Origin: a virus
Direction: 5' to 3' (one strand)
IMG/VR virus record: IMGVR_UViG_3300009103_000008
Span: 42,153-106,152 of that record
DNA: 64,000 nt
The first letter of the stretch is position 1; every line of letters begins with the position of its first letter. Below, piece after piece: positions 56,357 to 64,000 of the stretch. Made by a program: the position numbers and the translations under genes. The notes beneath the pieces are model-generated. The model did no database searches, was not told where the DNA came from, and was given only the letters and a program-made list of their open reading frames with translations.

Positions 56357-56807
56357 GTCATACAGTGGTAAGTTTAAACCAAAGAACTATAAAAAATATA
56401 AGGGAGACCCTACAAAAATCTTTTACAGGTCTTTATGGGAACGCAGATTCATGGTTTACTGCGATAATAATCCCAATATTATAGAATGGGGAAGTGAAGA
56501 AATCATAATTCCTTATCGTTCTCCTGTAGATAAAAAAGTCCATAGATACTTTCCTGATTTCTATATTAAATATCAAAATAGTAAAGGTGAAGTCCTTAGA
56601 GAAATCGTTGAGGTTAAACCAAAGGCTCAATGTCTACCACCTAAAGAACCTAAAAGGAAAACAAGAAAATATAGGAATAAAGTCATCACCTATATAATCA
56701 ACCAAGCAAAATTTAAAGCAGCTGGTGACTATTGTAGAGATAGAAAAATGGGATTCAGAATTCTAACCGAAGACCACCTAGTCCCCAAGAGTAAAAGAAA
56801 AAAATGA
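56355..56807 (+). CDS. 4: gp4 head completion nuclease
   Basis: 150 residues, the size of T4 gp4/50. PD-(D/E)XK-type nuclease pattern: FYRSLWERRFMVYCDNN near residue 24, YFPDFYIKY near 65 (the PD) and EIVEVKPKAQ near 86 (the ExK). In T4 it acts on the DNA end/portal in head completion. Ends with a basic KSKRKK tail. Its stop overlaps the next ATG by four bases. Confidence 0.92.
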   Translation: MSYSGKFKPKNYKKYKGDPTKIFYRSLWERRFMVYCDNNPNIIEWGSEEIIIPYRSPVDKKVHRYFPDFYIKYQNSKGEVLREIVEVKPKAQCLPPKEPKRKTRKYRNKVITYIINQAKFKAAGDYCRDRKMGFRILTEDHLVPKSKRKK

Positions 56808-57394
56808 GTAAATTATTTGTATTTGATTTGGACGGAGTTCTTATTAACTCCCTACTTAACATGAAGAATGCATGGGACGCCGTAAGGGTGAAACATGAGA
56901 TTGAAATCCCATTCCGATATTATAAAGCACAAATAGGTAAACCCTTCCCTGACATTATGAGTGAACTAGGATTGTTTGATAAACACCTAGAGATATATGA
57001 CACCTATAAAACATATTCTCAAATGAACATTCACACTATTCCTATGTATGAGGGTGTTAATGAAACTCTAAACGAATTAAAAGACCAAGGTCATAAGATT
57101 GCACTATGCACTTCTAAAACAAAAGAAACCACTAACATACTCTTAAGTAAATTCCCTAAATTTGATTATGTCTGTTGTCCACAAAAAGGCCTTCGTGGTA
57201 AACCAGCACCTGACCAATTACTATACACTATTGCCATGTGTAATGTTGACCCTAAAGACACAATTTATATTGGAGACATGATGCCTGACCTACAATGTGC
57301 TGTTAGAGCTGGTGTCCATTTCGAATATGCAGAATGGGGATTTGGAGAATTAAAATGCGAGCACTCGCTGAAGTCGATTACAAATCTGATTTAG
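56804..57394 (+). CDS. HAD-superfamily phosphatase (phosphoglycolate phosphatase-like)
   Basis: 196 residues. Motif I FDLDGVLINS (nucleophile Asp, residue 8), motif II ALCTSKTK (Thr/Ser), conserved Lys in GLRGKPAPDQL and motif IV IYIGDMMPDLQ are all present, with a small helical C1 cap. Because kdsB follows with a 40-base overlap, dephosphorylation of a KDO precursor is an attractive guess. The usual KdsC has no C1 cap, so any sugar phosphate is possible. Confidence 0.82.
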   Translation: MSKLFVFDLDGVLINSLLNMKNAWDAVRVKHEIEIPFRYYKAQIGKPFPDIMSELGLFDKHLEIYDTYKTYSQMNIHTIPMYEGVNETLNELKDQGHKIALCTSKTKETTNILLSKFPKFDYVCCPQKGLRGKPAPDQLLYTIAMCNVDPKDTIYIGDMMPDLQCAVRAGVHFEYAEWGFGELKCEHSLKSITNLI

Positions 57395-58083
57395 TTATTG
57401 GGTTAATTCCCGCGAGGTGGAAATCAACTCGGTTCGAAGGGAAACCACTTGTAGATATAGCGGGTGTGCCTATGATACGAAGGGTATATGACCGTGCAAG
57501 TATTGCTAATCACTTAGACCAAGTCATTGTCCTTACAGACGACATGAGAATTAATGACTATTGTCAACTGAATCAAATGACATGTATTGTAATAGAAGAA
57601 GATTGCCGAACTGGAACAGACCGTTGCGCTCACGCTCTGAAATTATTGGAGGGTAGTCTCTTTGTAAACATTCAAGGAGACGAACCCTTGATTAATCCTT
57701 CTGCAATAGACAATCTTATAGAAAATTTCGATAATAATATAGGTGTTGCAAATGCATATACTAAAATTGACCAAGATTATAAACTAAATGACAGAAATGT
57801 TGTAAAAGTTGTGTTTGATAAGGCAAAAAATGCGCTTTATTACAGTAGATTACCTATATCAGACTACCAACAGCTGGGATTATATGCCTTTAACCGCGGT
57901 ATGCTGGACGCCTTTCCTAAATTTACCCTAGGAGAACTGGAAATTGACGAATCTATCGAAATGTTGAGGTATCTTGAGAACGGATTTGATGTTAAAATGG
58001 TTGAAGTCGAAGATGAGGGCCTTTCCGTAGATACTCCTAACGATTTAAAGCTGGTTGAACTAAAAATTAAGGGATATCACTAA
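57355..58083 (+). CDS. kdsB: KdsB-like CMP-KDO synthetase
   Basis: 242 residues from ATG 57355 with GGAG eight bases upstream. The cytidylyltransferase signatures are LIPARWKSTRFEGKPLVDIA (standard PARxxSxRLPGKPL), TGTDRCAHAL and VNIQGDEPLINPS. The product would be CMP-activated 3-deoxy-manno-octulosonate, the donor for LPS inner core or capsules. Embedded in a late structural operon, it implies glycan synthesis during virion assembly. Related NulO/other CMP-sugar synthetases are less likely given the GDEPLI motif. Confidence 0.88.
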   Translation: MRALAEVDYKSDLVIGLIPARWKSTRFEGKPLVDIAGVPMIRRVYDRASIANHLDQVIVLTDDMRINDYCQLNQMTCIVIEEDCRTGTDRCAHALKLLEGSLFVNIQGDEPLINPSAIDNLIENFDNNIGVANAYTKIDQDYKLNDRNVVKVVFDKAKNALYYSRLPISDYQQLGLYAFNRGMLDAFPKFTLGELEIDESIEMLRYLENGFDVKMVEVEDEGLSVDTPNDLKLVELKIKGYH

Positions 58084-58967
58084 TGGAACACATACATTTA
58101 AACGCACATAAGGTAAAATACTATGAAAATGGTGAGCAACCTTCTAGTTATCACCAACGAGACCCCGTAGCAGTAGAAGAAGTCAAACAAAAGTTCGAAG
58201 AAGTGTCAAAAGTCGGCCATCCTAAGATAATAACACTGCATGAAGCCCAAAAAGAAGGCATAGTTCAGACTAAAGGGTATTATAACGACAAACCAATGAC
58301 CCCTTTAGAGGCATATGGTTATGTATGGCTTGATAATGCCTATAAAACAGAATATCCTGACCCAAAAACAGCTAAAGGCCAAGAGTGGAGTGACTTTTTA
58401 ATGAAACCAATCGAAAATCAAGTGTTTCATTGCATTAAGATACAATGGTTAGTCAATATCATACAAACAGAGGGCCTTTATTCTTGTCCTCAAGCGGTAT
58501 TAAGAAAATCTCAATGGTTTGTCCATCCCGGCCAGTTCAGAGTTCATGCTATTACCTATACTGACTGTAATGAAGAGTTCATTGTTTGGGATACTAAGAA
58601 TATTTTACCTCAACCCGAAATAGATTATGAAGAATGGTGGTCTAGATACAGTCACCATACAGATAAAGGTTTATTTGCAGCAGTCTTTGAAGATATTGTA
58701 GAAATGCATGTCGGAGAATATCGCCAAGACCTATATGATAAGGTTGCTGGTGGGATAGATTGCTTCCAAGGTGTTAAACCAATACTCGAAGGAACATGTG
58801 ACGAGAGCATAGCACATTTATTCACCCATGGAACATACGAGGGCCACGGGATAGGGATTGTAGGACACTTTACCTTTGAAGATTTACAACATGTATGTGA
58901 CTTCCACCCAACAAAGCAATATATTGGCAAAGAAAACTTTACTTTGTATAACAATTATCATAAATAA
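58083..58967 (+). CDS. unknown protein sharing the HPG module of the glycosyltransferase
   Basis: 294 residues. Residues about 118-170 read IKIQWLVNIIQTEGLYSCPQ, VHPGQFRVHA then EEFIVWDTKNILP, aligning with residues about 170-255 of the 542-aa glycosyltransferase. The layout (helix, EGL..PI, x-HPGxxR, then IxVxD) resembles ParB-like domains, as an inference. The C-terminal part has many His residues (HLFTHGTYEGHGIGIVGHFT). Its ATG overlaps the kdsB stop, so it probably works with KdsB. Confidence 0.6.
   Translation: MEHIHLNAHKVKYYENGEQPSSYHQRDPVAVEEVKQKFEEVSKVGHPKIITLHEAQKEGIVQTKGYYNDKPMTPLEAYGYVWLDNAYKTEYPDPKTAKGQEWSDFLMKPIENQVFHCIKIQWLVNIIQTEGLYSCPQAVLRKSQWFVHPGQFRVHAITYTDCNEEFIVWDTKNILPQPEIDYEEWWSRYSHHTDKGLFAAVFEDIVEMHVGEYRQDLYDKVAGGIDCFQGVKPILEGTCDESIAHLFTHGTYEGHGIGIVGHFTFEDLQHVCDFHPTKQYIGKENFTLYNNYHK
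58959..58966 (+). promoter_or_regulatory. late promoter before the 195-aa gene
   Basis: CATAAATA on the plus strand, six bases before the ATG at 58973. One base longer than the leaderless class, so predicted start is at or one base before the AUG. Overlaps the end of the preceding gene. Confidence 0.5.
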
Positions 58968-58972
58968 TAGAT

Positions 58973-59560
58973 ATGGCAAGTCTATTTTCAGATATAATTG
59001 GTCAAAAGCCAGAAGAGATTGAAGCTCAAACCTTCAACTCGTTAGAATGGTTCCAAAAGAATGTAAGGGATATCCGTAGGAGTCCCGATAAGCTGTTAAA
59101 AGAAAATCAAAACTTTGTCACTCGATTTGAGTTAGGTAAAATGTATATGTTTATGTATGATGCTAAACGGCAAGATACATTGAAGTATTACGATTACTTT
59201 CCTCTCTCAATTTGTTTGAAAAGATATCCAACTGGTTTTCTAGGTGCAAATTTACATTACATTGCACCGAAATACAGAGCATTACTAATGGACGCAATGT
59301 ATCAGTATATCGAGAAAGACGAGACAACCGAGGAAGCTTATTTTAGGGTTAGATACCCTATGATTAAAAGCATTAGTAGGTTGAGGTGGGCAAGACCCTG
59401 TTTAAAACAATACCAATATGGTTATGTAAACAGTAGGATTGTTGAAGTTCAACCTGAAGCAATGGACATGGTAGTTATGCTACCAAGTCATAAATTTAAA
59501 TCAAAGGGAACTAACTTTAATGCAAATATAGTTCACCGAGAAAGTTTAGGAAAGACATGA
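58973..59560 (+). CDS. virion assembly protein, 195 aa (possible gp2/gp3-position protein)
   Basis: GKMYMFMYDAKRQDTLKYYD then YFPLSICLKRYPTGFLGANL and HYIAPKYRALLMDAMYQYI form a conserved T4-like family pattern. Members are variously annotated in marine phages (DNA end protector or completion protein); I cannot decide. In T4, genes 3, 2, 4 and 53 cluster, and here gp4 and gp53 are near. Ends with an ATGA overlap to ACP. Confidence 0.6.
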   Translation: MASLFSDIIGQKPEEIEAQTFNSLEWFQKNVRDIRRSPDKLLKENQNFVTRFELGKMYMFMYDAKRQDTLKYYDYFPLSICLKRYPTGFLGANLHYIAPKYRALLMDAMYQYIEKDETTEEAYFRVRYPMIKSISRLRWARPCLKQYQYGYVNSRIVEVQPEAMDMVVMLPSHKFKSKGTNFNANIVHRESLGKT

Positions 59561-59772
59561 TAGAAAAAATAGTAGCACAAACACTTGGTTGCAGCCAAGA
59601 TTCAATAAAAGACGAATCAAACTTTGTAAATGACTTAGGTGCCGACTCTCTTAACATAGTTGAGATAGTTATGGCAATAGAGGAAGAGTTCGATGTTTCG
59701 ATTCCTGATGAAGATGCTGAGACACTTCATACAGTCGGCGCAGTAAAACAATATATTGAGGACAACTCCTAA
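59557..59772 (+). CDS. acpP: acyl carrier protein
   Basis: 71 residues. Four-helix ACP with the phosphopantetheine-attachment motif GADSLNIVEIVMAIEEEFDV; the Ser is residue 31. ESNFVNDLGADSL and ISIPDEDAE-type features are conserved, and the protein is acidic. It would need a host holo-ACP synthase. It carries acyl groups for fatty-acid or lipid A synthesis, or might bind a host enzyme. Unusual in being fused by ATGA and TAATG overlaps to structural genes on both sides. Confidence 0.92.
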   Translation: MIEKIVAQTLGCSQDSIKDESNFVNDLGADSLNIVEIVMAIEEEFDVSIPDEDAETLHTVGAVKQYIEDNS

Positions 59773-60662
59773 TGCCAAAAGGAAGTAAGGCCACAGGTGG
59801 TGGAGCACCAAAATCTAGTGGAAAGTTTAACGATAAGAGAGGCATAGATGCTCTTAAGGGATATGTCGGCCAACCTCTACAACCAAATAGATTTATTTTT
59901 CAATTCTTAACACTACCAAAAGATTTTGAATTACCTGACGGAGATACTTTAAGTATACTCTGTCAATCAGCAACATTGCCGGGCAAGTCAATAGAAACAG
60001 CAGAACATATTAGACATAGATACATGCCTACAGGTGATGTTGATTACGGTCAAAGCATATCCCTTACTTATATTTGTGACACCTCATTTATGGATAGATA
60101 TATTATAGAAGAGTGGTTAAGATATGTCCATTCAGCAGATGTTGATACATGGACTGATATAAGTTATGGTAAAAGTTCTGACGGCGAGAAACAAATTTTC
60201 AGATTCTATGATGAGTATGCAGCTCCATGTAAAGCACAATGTCATGTATTAAGAAGAGATGGTAGTGCAGCTATGACATATACATTTCATGATGTATATC
60301 CACAAGGTATAGATGATATTTCATTAGAAATGAGTTCAAATGATGAAGTTATGCAGTTTTCATTTGATTTAGGATACAAGTGGTGGACAGTTGAATACTT
60401 ACCAATAGAAACAGAAGTAAAAATGAACCAACCTATGGACGGAAACTTTGAGATAAGTGGACTAAATAAAGGGAGGAAAATCTTTGATGCAGTTCTTGAA
60501 GGACTCAAGGTTGCTGGAAGGTTTAATAAGAAAGCGGGTGCAATGGGAAGGAGACTAGGTCAACTTGACACTGCAATAACCCGTGGTAGTAACATAAGCA
60601 GAGATATAGGTGGAAGCTTTAACTCTAATTATGTGACTAATAAAAGGCGTGGTGGAGGTTAA
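59772..60662 (+). CDS. 54: tail-tube-fold protein, gp54-like (tube initiator)
   Basis: 296 residues (T4 gp54 320). Tube-fold pattern: PNRFIFQFLTLPKDFELPDG, LCQSATLPGKSIETAEHIRH, SISLTYICDTSFMDRYIIEE and MQFSFDLGYKWWTVEY, arranged as in gp19. The extra basic C-terminal tail (residues 225-296, Gly/Arg/Lys-rich) is absent in gp19. In T4 gp54 caps the baseplate and nucleates the tube with gp48. A second possibility is another tube-associated protein. Confidence 0.65.
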   Translation: MPKGSKATGGGAPKSSGKFNDKRGIDALKGYVGQPLQPNRFIFQFLTLPKDFELPDGDTLSILCQSATLPGKSIETAEHIRHRYMPTGDVDYGQSISLTYICDTSFMDRYIIEEWLRYVHSADVDTWTDISYGKSSDGEKQIFRFYDEYAAPCKAQCHVLRRDGSAAMTYTFHDVYPQGIDDISLEMSSNDEVMQFSFDLGYKWWTVEYLPIETEVKMNQPMDGNFEISGLNKGRKIFDAVLEGLKVAGRFNKKAGAMGRRLGQLDTAITRGSNISRDIGGSFNSNYVTNKRRGGG

Positions 60663-60689: not shown

Positions 60690-61394
60690 ATGGCTTTACC
60701 AAAGCAGACCGCACCGAAGTATAAATGCATACTTCCAAGTGACGGTTCAGAAGTGGAGTTTCGACCATTTCTAGTTAAAGAGCAAAAAGTATTAATGCTT
60801 GCTCAGGAACAAGAAAAGGATGAAGCAATGTTTGTTGCAGTGCAAGACCTTATCGAAGCAGTAACTTTCGGAAAGGTTAAATCCAAACAGTTACCTGTTA
60901 TCGACATGGAATATTTGTTCCTTAAAGTTCGATCAGTATCGGTAGGAGAAACAGCAACAGTAACCTTGTCTTGCCACGACCCCAAATGTGAAGGAGGGAA
61001 TGGAGAGGCAGTTGTTAATTTAGATGATGTGGAAGTAGTAGGAGACGAACCTGAACACAAAATTATGATTAGTGATGAATTAGGAATTGAGTTAAGATAC
61101 CCAAGGATAAGTGATGTAGAAGCAACACAACACCTTGAGGGAGGAGCTCAAACTATTGAAATGCTGAAGCAATGTATGGTGACAATATTTGATGAGGAAG
61201 AGGTCTACACAGTTCGAGATAGTTCTACAAATGAACTAAACGAATTTGTTGAGACACTAACAATGACTCAATTAGAATTGTTAACTGCATTTTTTCAAGG
61301 CATACCAGTATTGAAGAAGGAAGTCGAAACAGAATGTAAAGTGTGTGGAAAGGAAATTAGAACTGAATTAGTAGGTTTACAAAGTTTTTTCTAG
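60690..61394 (+). CDS. 26: gp26 baseplate hub / tail assembly protein
   Basis: 234 residues (T4 gp26 208). The T4_baseplate family pattern is EFRPFLVKEQKVLMLAQEQE near residue 20, followed by DLIEAVTFGK, MEYLFLKVRSVSVGET and a Cys-rich pair (CHDPKC, CKVCGKEI) that looks like a zinc site. The 3' end carries the slippery heptamer TTTTTTC directly before the stop, so a minor -1 product would add 66 residues. Confidence 0.85.
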   Translation: MALPKQTAPKYKCILPSDGSEVEFRPFLVKEQKVLMLAQEQEKDEAMFVAVQDLIEAVTFGKVKSKQLPVIDMEYLFLKVRSVSVGETATVTLSCHDPKCEGGNGEAVVNLDDVEVVGDEPEHKIMISDELGIELRYPRISDVEATQHLEGGAQTIEMLKQCMVTIFDEEEVYTVRDSSTNELNEFVETLTMTQLELLTAFFQGIPVLKKEVETECKVCGKEIRTELVGLQSFF

Positions 61395-61591
61395 TAGCCC
61401 TTTCTCATGATAGTCTAATAAACTATTTAAACACAAACTTTCAAATGATGCAACATCATGGCTACTCTCTTAGAGAGTTAGATGACATGATGCCATGGGA
61501 AAGGGAAATTTACATTAAATTATTACTTCAACATTTAGAAGAAGAACGGGAACGAGAAAAAGCTCGTGCCCAAAAAGCAAGAAGCAGATAG
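61382..61591 (+). CDS. gp26 -1 frame extension (gp51-like, predicted frameshift product)
   Basis: The -1 frame is open from inside gp26 through to a stop at 61589-61591. After a slip at 61385-61391 it gives LVALSHDSLINYLNTNFQMM then QHHGYSLRELDDMMPWEREI and a charged helix (LEEEREREKARAQKARSR). LDDMMPWEREIY is the sort of motif carried by the second frame of tail assembly chaperones. The only internal start, at 61445, has no Shine-Dalgarno, which favours frameshifting over separate initiation (48 aa). Confidence 0.65.
   Translation, partial: KFFLVALSHDSLINYLNTNFQMMQHHGYSLRELDDMMPWEREIYIKLLLQHLEEEREREKARAQKARSR
61385..61391 (+). promoter_or_regulatory. -1 ribosomal frameshift slippery site
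   Basis: T TTT TTC in the gp26 frame (X XXY YYZ), followed immediately by TAG. AGTAGCC (61393-61399) can pair with GGCTACT (61460-61466) across a 60-base loop; other local pairings (CATGAT/ATCATG) are possible. The stop codon next to the site may itself stimulate slippage. Confidence 0.6.
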
Positions 61592-61622: not shown

Positions 61623-62006
61623 ATGGCAGATTCACGAGAACAGTTTAGTGGAGACATGTCGAGAAATGAAGTTGAAATAGATTTATCTAAATTTATGGAG
61701 ATGATTCAAGAGAACGCTGCATTAAAACAGCAGATTTTTGAATTAGAACATGACGGTAAGGTCAACCCCTATCAGAAGTGGATTCATTTATCAGCAATGA
61801 TTGATAGTTGGAGAATATGGCCAAGAGCATTTTTAAGTGTTTACATATTCTTAATTTACTATGTTGTAATGTGGTTTTTGGATTTAGCTGAACCAACAAT
61901 GGAACAAAGTGGACTACTTTCAATATTGGTTGGTGCTGGAGCAGCTTGGTTTGGACTATATGTCAATTCCGCTGCAAAAGAACATGCTACCAATAAGAGT
62001 GATTAA
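61623..62006 (+). CDS. two-span membrane protein, 127 aa
   Basis: A soluble N-terminal region with a short coiled coil (MEMIQENAALKQQIFELEHD), then two hydrophobic spans (WPRAFLSVYIFLIYYVVMWF, residues about 66-87, and LLSILVGAGAAWFGLYVNSA, about 97-116) and a charged tail. The pattern occurs in marine T4-likes without a known role. Two-span topology would suit a holin, but its place in the tail operon suggests a virion or tail-tip role. GGAGA ribosome site. Confidence 0.7.
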   Translation: MADSREQFSGDMSRNEVEIDLSKFMEMIQENAALKQQIFELEHDGKVNPYQKWIHLSAMIDSWRIWPRAFLSVYIFLIYYVVMWFLDLAEPTMEQSGLLSILVGAGAAWFGLYVNSAAKEHATNKSD

Positions 62007-62031: not shown

Positions 62032-62253
62032 ATGGCAGAAGAAGAAACAATAAATGAATCACATGATGATTCAAATCATCTTGAAAGTCTAAAGGATAAC
62101 GCACCAGTAGAACCTAACAAGGACGAACTGGACGAACTACAATATGAGTCTGCAAAGGCTTCATATGATAGAGCTTTAGAACTATGGCAAGAACAAGTTG
62201 ATAAAACTGAAGCTTCACTTTTAGTAGAAGAAGAATTAAAAGAAGAAGAATAA
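62032..62253 (+). CDS. small acidic helical protein, 73 aa
   Basis: Very acidic (starts MAEEETINESHDDSNHLESL, ends VEEELKEEE), mostly helical with DELQYESAKASYDRALELWQ in the middle. No cysteine, no membrane segment. Situated between the tail assembly genes and the tape measure, it may be a small tail chaperone. GAGGA precedes the ATG. Confidence 0.65.
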   Translation: MAEEETINESHDDSNHLESLKDNAPVEPNKDELDELQYESAKASYDRALELWQEQVDKTEASLLVEEELKEEE

Positions 62254-62264
62254 GGCTTTAACCA

Positions 62265-64000
62265 ATGGCAAAAAAAGACGAAGACGGTCGCTCGAGTAAG
62301 CAAGCCGATGCATTTCTAAAAAAGGATCAACAACGATCCGAGAAATTGCAACAAGATAGGACAGACGCCCTTGAAAGGTGGACGAAGGCTAACGCTAATA
62401 CTTATAAAAAATCTGCTGAGAAACTAAATGCTGCAGCTGAATCTGGCATCAAGGCCATGCAGGCAAAGGAAAAGGCAGACGCATTAGAAGTTGCAAATAG
62501 AGAAAGAATGGCAGCTTCAAGAGGTGTCTCTCTAGCCCAATTCGAAAAGACCATGGACGCAACCATGAAAGAAGGTTGGAGTGCAACAGAAGGAGTCTTC
62601 GAACCCTTAGACGAACTCGGAAAGTCTATGGGTAAAATCCAAGTTGACGGAACTATGGGTAAATCCCTTGGTTCTGCAAGTGGTGCCATTAAAGAATTAA
62701 CTGGTGGTCTATTAGACCTTGGTGAAATGACTGGTGATGCAATGGATAAAGTGAAAGCAGTTGGAACACTCATTGCAACTCCGTTCAAAGTTGCAAACAA
62801 TGCTATCGCAGGTGCAACAAAATTCTTTGGTAAGGAATTCAATCCCGGCCAGAAGATGGCAGACTGGTGGGGTGGAACTGAAACTCTTATAGAGGACGGT
62901 GATAAAAAAGCTACGAAAGGATTTAGAGATTTAAAATTCAGTGAAAAAATGGGTAGGATATTTAGGCCATTTAGTCAGGGAGCTGAAGACGCAAAAGATA
63001 AATCAGAAGAAGGTGGTTCAAAAGTTTCTCAAGCTGGTGGTATACTATCTGCAGCTGGAGGTGATATAGAAGATGGTTCAGCTGAAGTTCCTAAAGCTGG
63101 TTCTAGACTATCTAAAGCTGGTTCTAAATTAGCTGATGGTTTTAATTCTTCCATGGAGAAGTTATCCGACTTAGGTGGAAGAATGAAAGAGAGTGCAAAG
63201 GCAATGGGAGCAGCGACTATTGCATGGATAAAAAACTTCCCAGCAATGATGAAAGGATTGTGGGGAACCATAAAACAAATGGGGAAATCTGCAGCAGCAT
63301 TCTTAATGGCTCTCCCAGCACTTATAATATCTAGTATTGCATTTGTCGCAGGATTAATTGCCTCTGCAGTTAGTATGATGATTGCAGCTGCACCAATAAT
63401 TGGTATTGCATTATTAATAGGGTTAGCAGTAGCAGCTCTTGTAATGGGTATTATGTTCTTAGTCCAAAACTTCGAATCTATTAAAACAACTATATCAGAA
63501 AAGATTACTGCAATGATAGATAAAGTCAAAGCGGTTGTGGGTAATATCGCAGACTTCTTTTCTAATATCTGGCAAGATATATCTGACTTCATTCGAGAAA
63601 AGGTATTAAAGATTAAATCAATCTTAGGTCTTACTTCTGATGCTGAAGAAGAAGAGTTAAAAGGTATTGAAGAAAGAAAGGCCAAGAAACAAGCATTGAC
63701 CGATGAGGCAAACAAACAAGCCGAAGCAGAAATTGATGAAATGAGAGCTAACGGTGAACTCGAAGGTATGAGTCGTAGAGAAATCAGGAACCTTACTAAA
63801 GAGAAAGCAGCAGAAGCCCTCGAGCGTGTGCAAGAGGAAGCGGAGTTCCAAGCAAAATCAGATGAAGAACTCTTGGCCCAGAAACATGAGGCTGATGATG
63901 AAATTAAAAAGCTAGATGAAAAATTAGCAGACAGGGAATTCGATAAAAAACAAGATGAAAGACTGTTCAAACAGGCGACAATCGATGATTTACATGAAGC
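62265..64000 (+). CDS. tape-measure-like tail protein (partial)
   Basis: At least 578 residues, open at the right edge; ATG at 62265 follows 11 bases after the previous stop. Helical charged N-terminus (RSEKLQQDRTDALERWTKAN), Gly/Ala-rich middle, then a very hydrophobic block (about residues 340-400: AAFLMALPALIISSIAFVAG and VSMMIAAAPIIGIALLIGLA), followed by coiled coil. This is the profile of tape measure proteins, and the order tube - gp26/frameshift - tape measure fits canonical tail modules. T4 gp29 similarity is not visible. Confidence 0.7.
   Translation, partial: MAKKDEDGRSSKQADAFLKKDQQRSEKLQQDRTDALERWTKANANTYKKSAEKLNAAAESGIKAMQAKEKADALEVANRERMAASRGVSLAQFEKTMDATMKEGWSATEGVFEPLDELGKSMGKIQVDGTMGKSLGSASGAIKELTGGLLDLGEMTGDAMDKVKAVGTLIATPFKVANNAIAGATKFFGKEFNPGQKMADWWGGTETLIEDGDKKATKGFRDLKFSEKMGRIFRPFSQGAEDAKDKSEEGGSKVSQAGGILSAAGGDIEDGSAEVPKAGSRLSKAGSKLADGFNSSMEKLSDLGGRMKESAKAMGAATIAWIKNFPAMMKGLWGTIKQMGKSAAAFLMALPALIISSIAFVAGLIASAVSMMIAAAPIIGIALLIGLAVAALVMGIMFLVQNFESIKTTISEKITAMIDKVKAVVGNIADFFSNIWQDISDFIREKVLKIKSILGLTSDAEEEELKGIEERKAKKQALTDEANKQAEAEIDEMRANGELEGMSRREIRNLTKEKAAEALERVQEEAEFQAKSDEELLAQKHEADDEIKKLDEKLADREFDKKQDERLFKQATIDDLHE

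Follow-up and report, generated by a model that had tools for sequence, protein, structure and literature searches.

The closest described system is gpG/gpGT of phage lambda, in which a short tail assembly chaperone (TAC) and a rarer, -1-extended form are made, the short ORF carrying a slippery site at its 3' end. This -1 frameshift is conserved in the TAC genes of tailed phages (Levin 1993, Xu 2004; in PMC5009743), and neither gpG nor gpGT is found in virions (PMC5009743). The same review, published in 2016, lists T4 as an exception to the G-T frameshift. TACs of T4-like phages were subsequently identified by Vladimirov, Gautam and Davidson (2022, Virology 566:9), according to two papers that cite this work. 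In the passages that cite it, PMC10885494 states that T4-like phages carry one short and one long copy and do not use frameshifting, and PMC12846349 refers to poly-T -1 signals in the TAC-N genes of T4-like phages. A GTTTTT -1 frameshift is also described in the TAC genes of Vandenendeviridae and Andersonviridae (PMC12846349). These phages belong to families other than that of the virus studied here and have an open -1 frame of more than 200 bp; as in our locus, a poly-T motif ends TAC-N and the downstream ORF is misannotated as a separate gene.

The locus lies in a stretch of 64,000 nucleotides (the window) from a virus record of 106,152 bp. The gp26 ORF (60690..61394, plus strand) is the candidate short form, TAC-N, comparable to lambda gpG. 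It matches PF12322 (T4_baseplate) with an E-value of 1.5e-54 and 185 bits, against a gathering cut-off of 24.5, and among the PHROG profiles it matches phrog_150, baseplate hub (E 1e-54). The PF12322 match is single-copy across the whole virus record. Directly upstream is the tail tube protein gene (59772..60662, plus strand; PF23849 Phage_TTP_2, E 1.6e-6; phrog_45, E 2e-28), whose product is the presumed partner of the T-like domain discussed below. Downstream, a tape-measure-like ORF (62265..64000, plus strand; phrog_58 and phrog_1272, E about 5e-7) runs off the window, and the tape measure protein is the presumed client of the gp26 chaperone. The first-pass annotation of this DNA had a tape-measure-like gene following gp26; the ORF at 62265 bears this out, but it does not follow immediately, as two small ORFs (61623-62006 and 62032-62253) intervene. 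The position of gp26/51 between the tail tube and tape measure genes is that expected of a TAC gene and is shared with lambda.

At 234 aa, gp26 is larger than lambda gpG, and neither its sequence nor its fold detectably matches solved chaperones. A search with its predicted model (mean pLDDT 87) returned no PDB match at E <= 0.001 and no solved tail-assembly chaperone fold. The comparison with lambda is therefore one of analogy: gp26 may work like a TAC, and we make no claim of homology to the lambda-type chaperones because the gp26 fold search was negative and the known TAC families are very divergent.

The last codons of gp26 read AGT TTT TTC TAG. They include the slippery heptamer T_TTT_TTC (61385..61391, plus strand), which is in the X_XXY_YYZ phase suited to a tandem -1 slip, and the 0-frame stop TAG (61392..61394, plus strand) adjoins its 3' end, with zero codons separating the two. 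This arrangement, noticed in the first-pass annotation, is seen both in the sequence and in the ORF list. The gp26 slip site, T_TTT_TTN, is unlike that of lambda. We propose, with a probability of about 0.93, that a -1 programmed frameshift on T_TTT_TTC yields gp26 and gp26-51 as a pair of chaperones resembling gpG/gpGT. Most ribosomes translating gene 26 would terminate at the TAG at 61392 and release gp26, the short chaperone (TAC-N). A minority would slip back one base in tandem on the heptamer, with tRNA-Phe re-pairing on TTT TTT, and would read 66 more codons to give gp26-51 (...GLQSFF-LVALSHDS...), the long chaperone (TAC-NC). By analogy with gpG/gpGT, the gp26 part may coat the tape measure protein and the gp51 part may recruit the tail tube protein. 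We infer the slippage, the rate at which it happens and the chaperone function; the anatomy of the site is directly visible, and its conservation, the coding selection on the -1 frame and the in-frame fusion in T4, all described below, are likewise shown by the sequences.

The -1 frame (61391..61591, plus strand) is the candidate C-terminal part of the long form. After the slip it begins CTA GTA GCC, it runs for 66 codons (61391-61588) and it ends with a TAG at 61589-61591. The open, protein-like extension of 66 codons that had been predicted is thus confirmed, and it encodes a domain matching phrog_634, the baseplate hub assembly catalyst gp51 (E 1.2e-25, 91 bits). The domain also aligns to the C-terminus of T4 gp51 (hhalign E 7e-5, 41 columns). 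Judged from these matches, the -1 frame is the gene known as 51, rather than a novel extension. Its predicted structure is helical (mean pLDDT 85), with helix 1 formed by residues 6-22, and a fold search with this T-like domain gave no significant match. The ORF list of the window gives no ordinary gene for the stretch.

In database records gp51 is entered as an ORF in its own right, start codon included, and in Vibrio phage D482, PVA8 and S-CRM01 an overlapping TAATG is found. Both would suit an independent small gp51 whose translation begins at a separate start codon (61445 in the window) or follows termination at the gp26 stop by reinitiation, an alternative that we nevertheless consider very improbable. 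In the window no start overlaps the stop. The first ATG of the -1 frame (61445..61447, plus strand; codon 19) is a poor candidate for independent initiation and, as claimed from the first inspection, it lacks a ribosome site, with no Shine-Dalgarno sequence in the preceding AAACACAAACTTTCAA. Among relatives the position of the first start codon varies between codons 1 and 32, and Nitratidesulfovibrio phage SRB7757 has a -1 frame without any ATG, GTG or TTG. Initiation at 61445 would drop most of the predicted helix 1 together with residues L4, S5, H6 and N16, which are invariant across 27 sequences and all precede the ATG of the window. In the 14 -1-frame codons that precede the usual first ATG, the differences at codon positions 1, 2 and 3 number 37, 20 and 67 (counted over the closest disjoint pairs, 22 pairs). 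Because these differences favour the third position, the -1 frame upstream of the usual first ATG carries the signature of coding selection, which argues against an independent start. In several relatives a start codon lies at most four codons from the heptamer, so a separate gp51 could also arise there. Independent expression would furthermore leave the invariance of the heptamer unexplained, even in the TAATG phages.

That invariance is extensive. A scan of IMG/VR gave 80 related loci with gp26 identities of 34-100%; in 80/80 an in-phase T_TTT_TTN stands either directly before the gp26 stop or one codon away from it, and the gp51-like -1 frame is found in all of them, with three contigs that end or stop early. 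Among annotated phages gp26 was found in 680 records and the -1-frame domain in 488, and in the cyanophages compared the spacing between the gp26 and gp51-domain matches equals that of the window. The heptamer is intact in 15 of the 18 named phages sampled first, at 0-6 nt before the gp26 stop, and the groups among these 15 include Emmerichvirinae and Emdodecavirus. It is present in Kyanoviridae, Vibrio Schizotequatrovirus, Aeromonas phage 65, Sinorhizobium phage phiM7, Rhizobium and Agrobacterium Pootjesviridae, Acidovorax phage ACP17, Nitratidesulfovibrio phage SRB7757, Methylophilales phage Melnitz and Ochrobactrum phage OC, and it is also intact in Stenotrophomonas phages such as Mendera. 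The three without an intact heptamer are IME-SM1, Klebsiella phage May and Vibrio phage K444. The test suggested with the original proposal, conservation of the heptamer together with an open -1 frame, is borne out by the 80 IMG/VR loci and by 15 of the 18 named phages; a heptamer that is not conserved in relatives, which the proposal had named as evidence against itself, is not what is seen in the lineage of the window.

Clustering at 70% gp26 identity gave 35 representative lineages, a set that excludes the three sampled phages without an intact site, and the presence of the heptamer in all 35 has a log10 P of -19.3 when the encoded amino acids and the pooled codon usage are taken as given. 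Of the 8037 other codon positions in the same 35 genes, only two have an in-phase T_TTT_TT. The first Phe is encoded by TTT in 35/35 lineages, the highest codon identity of any gp26 column. The second slip codon is TTC in 16, TTT in nine, TTA in eight and TTG in two; because it alternates between Phe and Leu yet keeps its TT, the constraint acts on the nucleotides. The gp26 stop follows the heptamer by 0, 3 or 6 nt in 12, 21 and two lineages respectively.

A G-L-x-x-F-F protein motif is kept even in T4 gp26, as might be expected if the heptamer had arisen only as a side effect of a conserved C-terminal Phe-Phe in gp26, with gene 51 surviving as a decayed relic in the -1 frame. Such an origin is contradicted already by the probability of about 1e-19 given the amino acids, and equally by the alternation of Phe and Leu with a fixed TT and by the third-position bias of the -1 frame. 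T4, CC31 and G37-3, moreover, retain a Phe or Leu motif with non-slippery codons, and we give this account almost no credence, less than any other considered here. Slippage of RNA polymerase on the T run, with the fusion translated from an altered mRNA, would agree with the site being a run of T and with the T8 found in 7 of the 35 lineages. Against it, T6 only is present in 26 of the 35, the window among these, and T6 is shorter than the runs known to slip efficiently in transcription. Tandem tRNA slippage suits both the codon phase of the T run and the stop beside it; transcriptional slippage seems even less probable than an independent gp51. Programmed ribosomal frameshifting accordingly remains our preferred reading.

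In T4 the arrangement differs. Gene 26 (208 aa) and gene 51 (249 aa) are divergent genes, residues 1-201 of T4 gp51 match PF12322 (E 4e-52), and its C-terminus matches the gp51 domain family. On sequence comparison, T4 gp51 consists of a paralogue of gp26 joined in frame to the domain encoded by the -1 frame of the window, so the fusion protein is a real product in T4. This fits an older remark that the first ~200 residues of T4 gp51 have no counterpart in the cyanophage protein (PMC3037559). T4 gp51 is needed for assembly and is absent from the particle (PMC3004832). The same two forms are thus present in T4, a short gp26 and a gp51 made of a gp26-like part and the C-terminal domain, but they come from two divergent genes with no slippery site, whereas the window has one gene and a predicted frameshift. 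A separately made small gp51 would leave this fusion of the same two parts in T4 unexplained.

There are two PF12322 genes in T4, two in RB43 and one in each of the other 21 records searched. No T_TTT_TTN is found at the aligned gp26 end of T4, CC31, AM101, G37-3, phiAS4 or RB43; the T4 end reads TTC TTT and that of CC31 TTC TTC. The slippery site has evidently been lost from gp26 in these six duplicated phages, which provide a natural control. In a protein tree the N-terminal parts of gp51 form one clade (100/99), and a 100/97 branch divides the duplicated gp26 and gp51 sequences, taken together, from every single-copy form, the gp26 rows of RB43 and phiAS4 being long branches of unsure placement. 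The simplest reading is one duplication in the T-even line, and T4 appears to have replaced the frameshift of tailed phages by two separate genes. The initial suggestion that gp26 of T4-like phages works like gpG/gpGT is supported for the lineage of the window, and in T4, which has no frameshift here, it holds by way of two genes.

A further variant is found in a clade that comprises Ackermannviridae (Det7, LIMEstone1, 3M and May), Vibrio phage K444 and Pseudomonas phage Cygsa01, where the open -1 gp51 frame is retained. The site in these phages is NTT TTY one codon before the stop, for example GAG ATT TTC ATT TAA, which permits good re-pairing of at most one tRNA. In our collection the gp26 3' ends with NTT TTY are those of L128, L129, L130, L095, L092 and L135 (e.g. 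L095:2717-2741). Stenotrophomonas phage IME-SM1 (L087:2726-2760) has T5 where phage Mendera has T6, which extends its gp26 to 280 aa in the wrong frame. We considered IME-SM1 as an exception using a +1 shift and rejected this, as 14 Stenotrophomonas records other than IME-SM1 have one base more than the query in the matching stretch; the IME-SM1 site is a one-base natural deletion or a record error.

Possible stimulators were sought on both sides of the heptamer. The 89 nt that follow it in the window have a predicted fold with a z of -2.0, but an alignment of ten relatives gives no consensus pair and Rfam gives no match. A downstream pseudoknot or stem-loop was rejected as the stimulator, since the fold of the window is not conserved among the ten relatives. 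Upstream by ~10 nt, a Shine-Dalgarno-like element is enriched over the 35 lineages (-5.7 vs -4.4 +/- 0.27 kcal/mol), with 0 of 300 synonymous resamplings as strong; in the window itself the value is -3.6 vs an expected -3.7, which is no enrichment. A bolder reading, which we consider less likely than not, is that the gp26 family makes its chaperone pair in three ways: by a tandem T_TTT_TTN slip in most lineages, by duplicated genes in T-even phages, and in the clade of Ackermannviridae, Vibrio K444 and Pseudomonas Cygsa01 from the degenerate NTT_TTY, either by slippage of a single tRNA or by some other non-canonical mechanism. On this reading the upstream Shine-Dalgarno-like element would, in many lineages, be the stimulator in place of a downstream RNA structure.

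What is called 'gene 51' in cyanophages and other marine T4-like phages is very probably no separate gene but the end of gene 26, reached by frameshifting, and in hundreds of public records it is annotated as independent or hypothetical, or is missing. The record of Acinetobacter phage AM101 already annotates gp26 and gp51 as tape measure assembly chaperones. To judge from the papers citing it, most of the gp26/gp51 frameshift idea appears to be already contained in Vladimirov et al. 2022, relative to which the present analysis would add confirmation and breadth.

Several other genes in this part of the window can be described. The first of the small ORFs downstream of the -1 frame (61623-62006) encodes 127 aa with a hydrophobic stretch resembling a membrane segment and matches phrog_10198, a family of unknown function; a small ORF is found at the same place in phiM7, RHph_N34, OLIVR5 and Melnitz. 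Upstream, a gene for a 71-aa acyl carrier protein (59557-59772; PF00550, E 2e-16) is inserted between a gp2-like DNA end protector gene and the tail tube gene. The ORF at 58083-58967 has no Pfam match; it comes next after a pair of genes located within the structural region (56804-58083), which encode a hydrolase of the HAD type (PF13419, E 2e-28) and a KdsB-type cytidylyltransferase (PF02348, E 2e-40), a combination that suggests phage-encoded sugar activation.
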